Of a stretch of 64,000 bases of DNA, positions 22,923 to 25,389 are shown in pieces (within the stretch, counting starts at the first letter, position 1; the number at the start of each line of letters is the position of its first letter). The DNA comes from Hydrogenophaga sp. BPS33. Lineage in GTDB: Bacteria; Pseudomonadota; Gammaproteobacteria; Burkholderiales; Burkholderiaceae_C. The position numbers and the translations under genes were made by a program. Location of the stretch: assembly GCF_009859475.1 (NCBI RefSeq), contig NZ_CP044549.1:6067501-6131500 (forward strand), read 5' to 3'. A model generated the notes under the pieces. That model was not told the origin of the DNA and did no database searches. It worked only from the letters and a program-made list of their open reading frames with translations.

Positions 22923-24191
22923 TTGTCCCTCGACACGCTGATCTCCCACAACACCCTGGCGCCCGATATGCCCGAGTACGGCGCCGATGCCTGCGCCCTC
23001 GTTCTCATGGGCGGCGGCGCTCGCACTGCATACCAGGTGGGCGTTCTCAAGGCGATCGGCACGATGCTGGCATCGAAAGCGGCCGTGGCCGCCAGTGCAG
23101 TGCAACCCTTTCCCTTCCAGTGGCTGTTCGGCACATCGGCAGGCGCACTCAACGCAGCCTACCTGGGCAGCATTGCTGCACAGGGCCTGTCCGCGTTGGG
23201 CGCGTTGGCGGCGTTCTGGAGCAGCCTTCGCTCCGAACGCGTGTACCGGCTCGAAGCGCCCGGATGGGTCCGCGCCAACCGGGTGGTTGCGGGCCTGACC
23301 TTGGCGCGCCAGGTACGCAAGCACCGCGCCCTGCTCGACACGCTGCCTCTGGTGGACACGCTGCACCACGCGATCGACCTGCACGGTCTGGAGCGCGCGC
23401 TGGAGCAGCGCCTGATCCACGCTCTGGGCGTGACCGCCTCGAGCTACACCAGCGGCGAGCACTGGACCTTCTGCCAGACGAGGCCCGAGCACCCCATACA
23501 ACCTTGGCACAGGCCGGGGCGCCGATCGGACTTTCAGCCGATCACGATCGAACACCTGATGGCGTCGAGCGCGATTCCCTTCCTGTTCCCCGCAGTGCCG
23601 CTCTGGGTGGATGGGCGCAAGGAATACTTCGGCGACGGCTCGATGCGGCAACTCTCGCCACTGTCCCCGGCCATCCATTTCGGCGCACGCCGCATCTTGG
23701 TGGTCGGCGTGGCCCAGCCCCAGCGCGCGGGCATGGCCGCGCACGGTGCAGGCGACCCTACAGCAGGCACCATCGCTGGCCACGCCATGGCCAGTGTCTT
23801 CCACGACACGCTGCAGGCCGACGTGGAACAGGCACAGCGCGTCAGCCAGACGCTGGCACGCCTGCCACCTGCCCTGGCGGCCGCGCTGCCGTACCGGCCG
23901 GTGGACGTACTGGCCCTTCAGCCCAGCTTTTCGCTCGACGAGCTGGCCAGCAAACACATCAAGGAGCTGCCCGCCTCCACACGCAATACTTTGACCGGTC
24001 TCGGCGCGCTGGACACCCGGCGTGGTGCGGCTGGCAGCGCGGCCGCGCTCGCGAGCTACCTGTTGTTCGAGCCGGGCTTCGTCCATGCCTTGATCGAGTT
24101 GGGGGAGCATGACGCCTGGCGGCGAAAGGATGAGTTGATGCGCTTTTTTGGCGCCGCCGAAGCCCTTGCCTCCGGCGGCCCGGTGCCATAA
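22923..24191 (+). CDS. Patatin-like phospholipase
   Basis: A 422-residue predicted serine hydrolase. The patatin signatures are complete: oxyanion loop GGGARTAYQVG (residues 30-40), nucleophile Ser in GTSAG (about residue 72) and the catalytic Asp in GDGS (about residue 238), so a Ser-Asp dyad lipase or phospholipase is expected. No signal peptide; a helical region follows the nucleophile. The start is uncertain: TTG at 22923 has a GAAAGG box about 8-10 bases upstream, while ATG at 22968 has none but would still include the oxyanion loop. The gene is divergent from hpf across a 254-base spacer in which I see no other gene. Confidence 0.88.
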   Translation: MSLDTLISHNTLAPDMPEYGADACALVLMGGGARTAYQVGVLKAIGTMLASKAAVAASAVQPFPFQWLFGTSAGALNAAYLGSIAAQGLSALGALAAFWSSLRSERVYRLEAPGWVRANRVVAGLTLARQVRKHRALLDTLPLVDTLHHAIDLHGLERALEQRLIHALGVTASSYTSGEHWTFCQTRPEHPIQPWHRPGRRSDFQPITIEHLMASSAIPFLFPAVPLWVDGRKEYFGDGSMRQLSPLSPAIHFGARRILVVGVAQPQRAGMAAHGAGDPTAGTIAGHAMASVFHDTLQADVEQAQRVSQTLARLPPALAAALPYRPVDVLALQPSFSLDELASKHIKELPASTRNTLTGLGALDTRRGAAGSAAALASYLLFEPGFVHALIELGEHDAWRRKDELMRFFGAAEALASGGPVP

Positions 24192-24223
24192 TCCCAGCCA
24201 GTTTCACTCCCCTGGAAAGACGC

Positions 24224-24277
24224 ATGGAAAGCACACCTCCCAGTTGTGTGCTTTCAGCCTCCCCCGCGACCGTCTGA
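24224..24277 (+). CDS. Possible 17-residue leader peptide upstream of corA
   Basis: ATG at 24224 opens a 17-codon frame (MESTPPSCVLSASPATV) ending in TGA, with GGAAAG four bases upstream as a weak ribosome-binding site. It lies inside the first hairpin and ends within the second of two competing stems in the corA leader. Its acidic second residue and paired prolines recall leader peptides of enterobacterial Mg2+ transporter genes (mgtL; corL for corA), but this is an analogy, not homology. It may be a chance ORF. Confidence 0.35.
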   Translation: MESTPPSCVLSASPATV

Positions 24278-24323
24278 GCGCTGCCTGCAGCGGCCTGGAC
24301 AGGGCAAGCGGTAGGCTGAAAGC
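24227..24323 (+). promoter_or_regulatory. corA leader with two mutually exclusive hairpins
   Basis: Stem 1 is a perfect 10-bp pairing of GAAAGCACAC (24227-24236) with GTGTGCTTTC (24246-24255). Stem 2 is a perfect 11-bp pairing of GCTTTCAGCCT (24250-24260) with AGGCTGAAAGC (24313-24323). The GCTTTC at 24250-24255 belongs to both, so only one can form. The 52 bases enclosed by stem 2 contain a further CGCTG/CAGCG hairpin. No U-tract follows, so control would be by Rho access, by translation of the short leader ORF or by ligand binding rather than by an intrinsic terminator. The element ends 79 bases before corA. Confidence 0.6.
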
Positions 24324-24402
24324 AGCACCTCAACCGCCTCCGAGGCCCGCAGCGCCGGCCTCGACCCTTTGCAAGACCGCATGAAACCGCAGGGAGCACC
24401 GC

Positions 24403-25389
24403 ATGCTCAACGTATTCACCTTGGCCAATGGCCGCCTCTTCCAGGAAGAGATCGAGTCGCTCGAAGAACTGGCGCGGTTCAAGCCGATCTGGGTCGACCT
24501 GGAAGACCCCACACCTGAAGAACGCCGTTGGGTCAAACAGCATTTCGGGCTGTCGATCCCCGAAGATGCGATGGACGAAGACATCGAGGAATCCGCCCGC
24601 TTCTTTGAGGAAGACAACGGCGAGCTGCATGTGCGCAGCGACTTCTTGATCGACGACGACGAAGACCCGCGCGCGGTGCGCGTGGCCTTCATCCTGAACG
24701 AGCACAACGAAACGCTCAAGAGCCAGGGTGTGCTGTTCTCCATCCACGACGAAGACGTGCCGGTATTTCGCCTGCTGCGCATGCGCGCGCGCCGTATGCC
24801 GGGTTTGATCGAGGATGCCAAGGACGTCCTGCTGATGCTGTTCGACGCCGATGCCGAGTACTGCGCCGACACGCTCGAAGACATCTACGACGACATCGAG
24901 ACCGTGAGCAAACAGGTGCTCAACAGCAACGCGTCGGACAATCTGCTGAGCGAGGCCTTGTCGTCGATCGCGCGCCACGAGGACATGTCGGGGCGTATCC
25001 GCCGCAACGTGATGGACACGCGCCGCGCCGTGAGCTTCATGATGCGCAGCCGTCTGCTGAGCGCGGAGCAGTTCGAGGACGCACGCCAGATTCTGCGCGA
25101 CCTGGACTCGCTCGACAGCCACACCGCGTTCCTGTTCGACAAGATCAACTTCCTGATGGATGCGACCGTCGGTTTCATCAACATCAACCAGAACAAGATC
25201 ATCAAGATCTTCTCGGTGGCCAGCGTGTCCTTGCTGCCACCCACGCTGGTGGCGAGCAGCTATGGCATGAACTTCGACTTCATGCCCGAGTTGAAATGGC
25301 ACTTCGGCTACCCGATGGCGCTCGTCCTGATGGTGCTGTCGGCGGTCTTGCCGATGCTGTACTTCCGCAAGCGCGGCTGGTTACGCTGA
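24403..25389 (+). CDS. corA: Magnesium and cobalt transport protein CorA
   Basis: A 328-residue homopentameric Mg2+/Co2+ channel of the inner membrane. Long acidic cytoplasmic N-terminal domain (DEDIEESARFFEEDN; DDDEDPRA), then a helix leading to two C-terminal transmembrane segments. The selectivity signature YGMNFD is in the periplasmic loop between them (about residues 287-292), and the protein ends with a basic tail RKRGW. Start at 24403 has AGGGAG eight bases upstream. Monocistronic, behind a structured leader. Confidence 0.95.
   Translation: MLNVFTLANGRLFQEEIESLEELARFKPIWVDLEDPTPEERRWVKQHFGLSIPEDAMDEDIEESARFFEEDNGELHVRSDFLIDDDEDPRAVRVAFILNEHNETLKSQGVLFSIHDEDVPVFRLLRMRARRMPGLIEDAKDVLLMLFDADAEYCADTLEDIYDDIETVSKQVLNSNASDNLLSEALSSIARHEDMSGRIRRNVMDTRRAVSFMMRSRLLSAEQFEDARQILRDLDSLDSHTAFLFDKINFLMDATVGFININQNKIIKIFSVASVSLLPPTLVASSYGMNFDFMPELKWHFGYPMALVLMVLSAVLPMLYFRKRGWLR

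Follow-up and report, generated by a model that had tools for sequence, protein, structure and literature searches.

The corA gene was considered constitutive, and a 2024 paper reports a Mg2+ response of this gene in E. coli (PMC11552253). In E. coli and Salmonella, the corA 5' region contains a short upstream open reading frame (uORF), corL, and mutually exclusive structures, with a regulation reported as promoter-independent and an output through Rho (PMC11552253). The leader of Salmonella mgtB carries the uORF mgtQ, which encodes 8 aa including Asp2, Pro4 and Glu5; its stems 1:2 and 3:4 alternate with stem 2:3, 3:4 occludes the ribosome-binding site (RBS) of the transporter gene, and the reported output is at translation (PMC8092293). 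For the acidic residues of MgtQ, a destabilized ribosome or impaired translation of the leader has been reported (PMC8092293). For MgtL, early acidic residues and prolines are reported to destabilize the ribosome at low Mg2+, so that the efficiency of mgtL translation is said to act as the Mg2+ readout (EttA/MgtL; PMC11282234, PMC11552253).

The window, i.e. the whole stretch of 64,000 nucleotides from Hydrogenophaga sp. BPS33 that was analysed, contains a corA gene preceded by a leader ORF and two competing stems. As the best reading, this leader is closest in logic to Salmonella mgtQ-mgtB rather than to the Rho-based corL-corA system. It shares with mgtQ-mgtB a very short uORF with an acidic residue 2 and a proline, placed before a Mg2+ transporter gene. 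Unlike mgtQ, whose gene is mgtB and lies within an operon, it precedes corA and has an apparent promoter of its own, and no homology was seen between the two; moreover, whereas MgtQ has Asp2 and Glu5, leaders of the type found in the window (variant A) usually encode one acidic residue, and the stop codon of their 7-codon form adjoins stem 2. The product of mgtB is a P-type ATPase. With corL-corA, the leader has in common a uORF in the corA 5' region and mutually exclusive structures, but the corL uORF lies in a three-way junction and the hairpin arrangement here is a different one. Acidic and proline codons at the beginning of the uORF are also found in mgtL-mgtA of E. coli; unlike mgtL, with its destabilizing EPDP motif and Rho output, the window and the variant A consensus show E/D-x-x-P and usually one acidic residue. 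The EPDP motif is missing from both, and the peptides MEPDPSWQLSTPD (L030) and MQPDPR (L258), each followed by a stop codon, come close to it. At the gathering score, Rfam returned no match in the window and none in 20 leader loci, and thus no listed Mg2+ riboswitch; at a permissive threshold, the leader gave three weak matches far below the gathering score. The literature titles and abstracts searched, a scope that left most subscription papers outside, describe no corA leader of the host family.

The corA locus contains the following features:

24403..25389, plus strand: corA, encoding a CorA-family Mg2+ transporter of 328 aa (Pfam PF01544, 181.2 bits)
24224..24277, plus strand: leader ORF MESTPPSCVLSASPATV followed by a stop codon, the corA leader peptide as it occurs in Hydrogenophaga (17 codons, Glu2)
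24184..24192, plus strand: putative extended -10 promoter element TGCCATAAT, from sequence comparison

The extended -10 element overlaps the stop codon (24189-24191) of the patatin-like gene that lies upstream. A scan for consensus sigma-70 promoters found none, the extended -10 having come from comparison: in 169 of 191 loci, TGNNATAAT precedes the start of the leader, as against 9 of 3820 shuffled upstream stretches. The leader seems to be served by a promoter of its own. Elsewhere, the window genome encodes another, distant CorA-like protein (G000:C1:502439-502639; 36% identity over 66 residues).

The two competing stems comprise the following elements:

24227..24236, plus strand: segment 1, the 5' arm of stem 1, covering codons 2-5 (from pairing, near-relative swap and synonymous recoding)
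24246..24255, plus strand: 3' arm of stem 1, with the GCTTTC common to stem 2 at its end (pairing, alignment, swap)
24249..24260, plus strand: segment 2, the 5' arm of stem 2 (pairing, covariation, swap)
24313..24324, plus strand: segment 3, the 3' arm of stem 2 (pairing, covariation, swap)

An earlier note on this DNA had described two perfect stems that cannot form together, and this description was borne out. Stem 1 (24227-24255) has 10/10 pairs around a 9-nt loop, stem 2 forms 12 bp without mismatch, followed by a mismatch and two more G-C pairs (15 nt, 93%), and the two are mutually exclusive because GCTTTC (24250-24255) sits in both. The start codon of the leader ORF lies immediately 5' of stem 1, whereas the reading frame closes inside the loop of stem 2. 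The 17 codons and the acidic second residue were as claimed; the number of prolines had to be corrected from two to three (positions 5, 6 and 14). Folded in silico by itself, the leader is only mildly unusual (z -1.68; 12/200 shuffles equally stable), a value that would fit chance hairpins in a GC-rich leader; this explanation is refuted by the family-wide conservation and covariation reported below and can practically be dismissed.

Four further elements are predicted to form an alternative structure over the corA Shine-Dalgarno (SD) sequence:

24257..24268, plus strand: predicted anti-SD stretch GC.TCCC..GCG, with 24388-24397 as its partner when stem 2 is blocked
24388..24397, plus strand: corA SD region CGCAGGGAGC, with GGGAG at 24392-24396, the target of the anti-SD
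24308..24315, plus strand: segment 3a GCGGTAGG, which, with stem 2 blocked, is predicted to pair with segment 4 (from folds and a family-wide test)
24328..24337, plus strand: segment 4, CCT..ACCGC, which pairs with segment 3a and opens a C-rich stretch before corA (folds, composition)

The corA SD (GGGAGT) has its complement in the inner part of segment 2, which reads ACTCCC in many genera, and segment 3a is complementary to segment 4, predicted to close a hairpin that sequesters the SD. When segment 3 was blocked in the window fold, stem 1 and the pairing of 24257-24268 with 24388-24397 over the SD were predicted (-80.8); the predicted stem 2 state (-85.3) is more stable than this stem 2-blocked state by 4.5 kcal/mol. 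On sequence and predicted folds, stems 1:2 and 3:4 are exclusive with 2:3, a layout like that of mgtQ.

A DNA search within the genus matched the leader in 62/67 genomes, and many of the weaker matches keep approximately query positions 24-33 to 76-90, hardly more than the leader ORF at query 33-86. Among the best 80 of 593 corA relatives, the leader, often with 7 codons (METYPSW, METYPSR or MESSPSR, each followed by a stop codon), is present in Acidovorax, Comamonas, Delftia and Variovorax as well as in Polaromonas, Rhodoferax, Limnohabitans, Malikia and others. The commonest leader has the form M-(E/D)-x-x-P-S-(R/W)-stop, as in METYPSR and METYPSW, with its stop codon adjoining the 5' arm of stem 2; compared with these sequences, the 17-codon ORF of Hydrogenophaga is a genus-specific extension of the 7-codon ORF. 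From the same 80 relatives, 52 leaders were retained as alignment A2 after manual removal of near-duplicate loci and of those with no clear leader; L009, L047 and L068 were dropped from a set of 55, L047 and L068 because of misalignment. As judged by eye, compensatory changes preserve stem 2 in L047, and L068 has a C-A mismatch in this stem. The covariance model R1, built from these 52 variant A leaders, matches 178/399 genomes and 70/141 genera of the host family, with a single match, at corA, in the window genome. Across the order, 10/399 genomes were matched, all within the host family, and in other families of the same order 0/387 genomes were matched, with the stricter filters that operate in such large covariance-model searches. 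All 98 loci fetched from R1 matches (L142-L239) carry corA, and the leader starts 100-198 nt upstream of it. Genome G669 (L160, L242) is the sole family genome among the matches listed with two R1 matches, and L052, a metagenome record titled Bordetella parapertussis that has a Comamonadaceae-type corA and the leader, is probably a mislabelled bin. Reading of L261-L282, a set of 22 loci in other families that are corA-like but in several cases not clear corA orthologues, revealed no comparable ORF. Given this result and the lack of an Rfam match, the independence from enterobacterial leaders that the earlier note had suggested is probable.

In the host family, corA upstream regions were also read for 20 genomes that R1 had not matched: 14 contain a related leader (variant B), five contain none (L240, L241, L243, L244 and L246), and one genome has no orthologous corA. 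The leader is missing from some lineages. Three loci (L240, L246 and L017) have a NATAAT promoter-like box near corA and no leader, apparently through natural leader deletions that are usable as natural controls. The commonest variant B peptide is MDSDHPR, followed by a stop codon, with the stem 2 arms GGTGACCGTCCACTCC and GGAGTGAGACGG, and intermediates such as MDVPPSR-stop bridge variant B and variant A. A variant B covariance model (R2), built from 10 sequences and run within the host family, matches 98/399 genomes and 39/141 genera. The R1 and R2 lists are disjoint, with no genome and no genus in both, and together place the leader in 276/399 genomes and 109/141 genera of the family. All 70 loci fetched from R2 matches carry corA, so that this applies to all 168 loci fetched with either model; in 69/70, a pattern-matching leader starts 108-311 nt upstream. 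Reinitiation coupling to corA was rejected as a mechanism, the leader start lying 100-311 nt upstream of corA. Judged by these comparisons, the leader is not special to the window: it is family-wide and exists in a second version.

For the analysis of variant A peptides, 239 loci were reduced to 199 distinct ones and then to 191, eight being dropped by score: L002 (a paralogue), L016, L017, L036 and L070 (no leader seen) and L037, L045 and L086 (leaders present). Reading of the latter group showed Ala at codon 5 in L086 and Asn at codon 2 in L037; in L045 (Tepidimonas alkaliphilus), the ORF encodes MDSSPSRGPAWVA, followed by a stop codon, and GCTTTC is replaced by the unrelated GC-rich arms GCGGGCCCGCG and CGCGCGGGCC (by eye). 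The 191 leaders consist of 149 with a spacing of 23 nt to GCTTTC and 42 of the Hydrogenophaga type with a spacing of 26. Codon 2 is acidic in 188/191. Codon 5 encodes Pro with all four CCN codons in use (193/194 after addition of the three score-dropped leaders), and the percentages for Pro5 and stem 2 are inflated, because the search pattern admitted only CCN as codon 5 and only spacings of 23 or 26 and because the loci and the 3' arm of stem 2 were picked partly by pairing. When these loci were scanned for GAN behind any start codon, the peaks lay again at 23 (146 loci) and 26 (42 loci). The proline of mgtQ mattered only via pairing (PMC8092293), which calls for caution over Pro5. In the 149 spacing-23 leaders, the start codon is TTG in 72, ATG in 48 and GTG in 29 cases, codon 6 encodes Ser in 142 (AGT 127, TCT 15), codon 7 encodes Arg in 97, Trp in 40 and Cys in 9, and TAG follows codon 7 in 113. 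AGT is favoured for Ser6 (127/149) despite its position in the loop of stem 1. Both AGT and TAG are rare in GC-rich genomes, and the preference for them may reflect a slow codon or an RNA contact. Amino-acid starvation attenuation was rejected, as the leader has no codon run and codon 7 varies.

An RNA element that binds a protein or an ion, i.e. a riboswitch in which the ORF is incidental, would account for the strong conservation of GCTTTC...GAAAGC and for the fact that codons 3, 7, 9, 10 and 11 of the Hydrogenophaga leaders are each represented by one single codon in 42/42 loci. This explanation is very improbable: the third base of Pro5 is free, Ser6 alternates between AGT and TCT, the start codon varies, variant B holds the 7-codon format on a different RNA sequence, and Rfam gave no match. 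Moreover, GAA is changed to GAC at codon 2 in 22/42 Hydrogenophaga loci, by which the acidic residue is kept and one pair of stem 1 is lost. From these substitution patterns, the leader ORF is under coding constraint. Ribosome position, proposed earlier to decide which stem forms, is the likely switch.

Covariation was assessed in alignment A2 by comparison with shuffled alignments. For stem 2, 87.3% of cells are paired, 7/13 pairs are changed on both sides, and the 46 double-change cells exceed the shuffled value of 17.5 (0/500 shuffles reach it); the count of pairs changed on both sides is not unusual when taken alone (63/500 shuffles). The score of stem 1 is 0.109 vs 0.067 for shuffles (0/500), and its pair-type count lies below that of shuffles (492/500 reach it). 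A C.C mismatch occurs in stem 1 of 106/149 spacing-23 loci. Random synonymous recoding of the ORF weakens stem 1 on average, and the natural stem lies in the best tenth of recodings in 43/89 distinct spacing-23 and 17/19 spacing-26 leaders. In a strict swap test, partners were exchanged between close relatives, with counts giving the cases in which the own pairing was better/worse. For the whole set, these were 65/6 for stem 1, 56/17 for stem 2 (inner part 60/28), 45/27 for the anti-SD pairing and 58/30 for 3a:4; a wider anti-SD window gave a non-significant 45/34 (p 0.13). None of the six controls significantly favoured the own partner, with two leaning in the opposite direction (5p:seg4 32/56, 5p:loop 34/53), and the loop:upstream swap was null (40/43). 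The 149 non-Hydrogenophaga loci yielded 55/5 for stem 1, 48/10 for stem 2, 41/14 for the anti-SD and 46/24 for 3a:4. In the 42 Hydrogenophaga loci, stem 1 alone is backed by this test (11/1), since the counts were 8/8 for stem 2 and 5/14 for the anti-SD, which lend no support, and 13/6 for 3a:4 (p 0.08); one control was positive there (12/3). The alignment of corA upstream regions across relatives, suggested earlier as a check, thus showed that both stems covary and that the leader is conserved family-wide.

Variant B was analysed using the 70 R2 loci and 13 others (83 loci, 74 distinct, 65 parsed, with the 3' arm of stem 2 found in 51); the 9/74 distinct loci that were unparsed include MQPDPR-stop (L258). 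In the parsed loci, 23/65 peptides are MDSDHPR, the start codon is TTG in 61/65, and codon 2 is acidic in 65/65, GA at this codon having been demanded by the pattern itself. In 10 variant B leaders, 94.1% of stem 2 cells are paired, with 5 double-change cells vs 1.6 in shuffles (1/500). Swaps in the 51 loci gave 9/0 for stem 2, 14/5 for the anti-SD and 18/5 for 3a:4, with three null controls; stem 1 was uninformative (z 0.3), because it hardly varies in this set. Variant B keeps the 7-codon format on a different RNA sequence.

The pairings were further evaluated in 141 representatives of the 191 loci. When own pairing was compared with permuted pairing, the helices tested reached z values of -7.6 to -16.5 and four controls values of -1.2 to +2.0. 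Replacement of the downstream half by that of another locus made the predicted off state 3.4 kcal/mol worse and left the on state unchanged (141 own sequences, 698 chimeras). With stem 2 blocked in the folds, the SD was more than half paired to segment 2b/loop in 98/129 non-Hydrogenophaga and 34/42 Hydrogenophaga loci, the count using 129 of the 149 and 42 of the 42 loci, as 20 have no recognisable SD. Blocking of the first codons raised predicted stem 2 formation from 0.43 to 0.68 (191 loci). The predicted openness of the RBS was 0.39 in the stem 2 state vs 0.34 in the free state, with a more open RBS in 98/141 loci and a difference of approximately zero in Hydrogenophaga. This predicted opening is small because the SD meets other partners in the stem 2 state, and the output is therefore not proven by thermodynamics alone. 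The alternative structure may occlude the RBS: complementarity outside Hydrogenophaga points to it, whereas swaps within Hydrogenophaga lend no support and the predicted opening is small. As the inner part of the stem 2 5' arm is complementary to the corA SD, translation of corA is the best-supported output.

The earlier note had mentioned Rho for the enterobacterial leaders and missed the anti-SD:SD pairing; the C-rich segment 4 is compatible with Rho. In Rho-dependent attenuation in the style of corL-corA, leader translation would expose a C-rich rut in the stretch from stem 2 to corA that stem 2 or an alternative hairpin hides, and Rho would terminate transcription. The base composition of segment 4 would suit such a mechanism: C averages 0.48 and G 0.17, and the C content is at least double the G content in 160/191 loci. 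The stretch 24324-24388 of the window is likewise C-rich and G-poor, its 0.45/0.23 falling just short of that ratio. Moreover, the terminator scan found no intrinsic terminator, and E. coli corA is reported to act through Rho and an inversely acting uORF (PMC11552253). The C bias, however, runs into the first 24 nt of corA (167/191) and may be general, and a Rho model does not require an anti-SD that changes along with the corA SD from lineage to lineage, so that we consider it unlikely as the output. Rho and translational outputs could also coexist.

Taken together, the alignments and folds suggest that the leader is probably a uORF-driven RNA switch acting on corA translation. On a leader free of ribosomes, stem 1 and the anti-SD:SD and 3a:4 helices would form, and corA would be off. 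A ribosome that initiates and then stalls or is lost early, at the acidic/proline codons, would open stem 1 and leave segment 2 bare, upon which stem 2 would form, the anti-SD would be taken up and corA would be on. A ribosome at the stop codon, which adjoins segment 2 in the 7-codon form, would mask segment 2, and its departure would restore the off state. Low Mg2+ would favour early destabilization of the ribosome, as for MgtL, such that corA would be upregulated when intracellular Mg2+ falls.

By analogy, from the gene identity and the peptide, we infer that the corA leader senses Mg2+. The same uORF switch could instead answer to another signal, such as another metal carried by CorA, growth rate, or the state of ribosome or tRNA (proline, slow termination at Ser-Arg/Trp-stop, or EF-P or ABC-F activity). 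The signal is not named by the sequence, and E. coli corA also responds to Mn2+ (PMC11552253); yet every fetched leader match precedes corA, and the acidic residue 2 and the proline recall MgtL (EPDP) and MgtQ (Asp2, Pro4, Glu5), and a signal other than Mg2+ is the less likely possibility. The charging of one tRNA is unlikely as the signal, because codon 7 varies between Arg, Trp and Cys. In a more specific reading for Mg2+, which has somewhat less than an even chance, the sensor would be the ribosome translating the 7-codon peptide: throughout the host family, leaders retain the format M-acid-x-x-(P or HP)-...-R-stop on an overlapping RNA that is rewritten (GCTTTC..GAAAGC in variant A, GGTGACCGTCCACTCC..GGAGTGAGACGG in variant B), each rebuilding stem 2 and the anti-SD to corA. 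On this view, the leader may have arisen independently as a translational Mg2+ homeostat, by convergence with mgtQ/mgtL of enterobacteria.

If true, a uORF switch built independently before corA throughout the family would imply more than one origin of ribosome-based Mg2+ sensing, and its leader ORFs would be among the shortest regulatory ORFs proposed as ion sensors. The 7-codon ORF is short enough for codon-by-codon testing, and the many natural variants, leader losses included, would allow the sensing part (peptide, stems or anti-SD) to be dissected.
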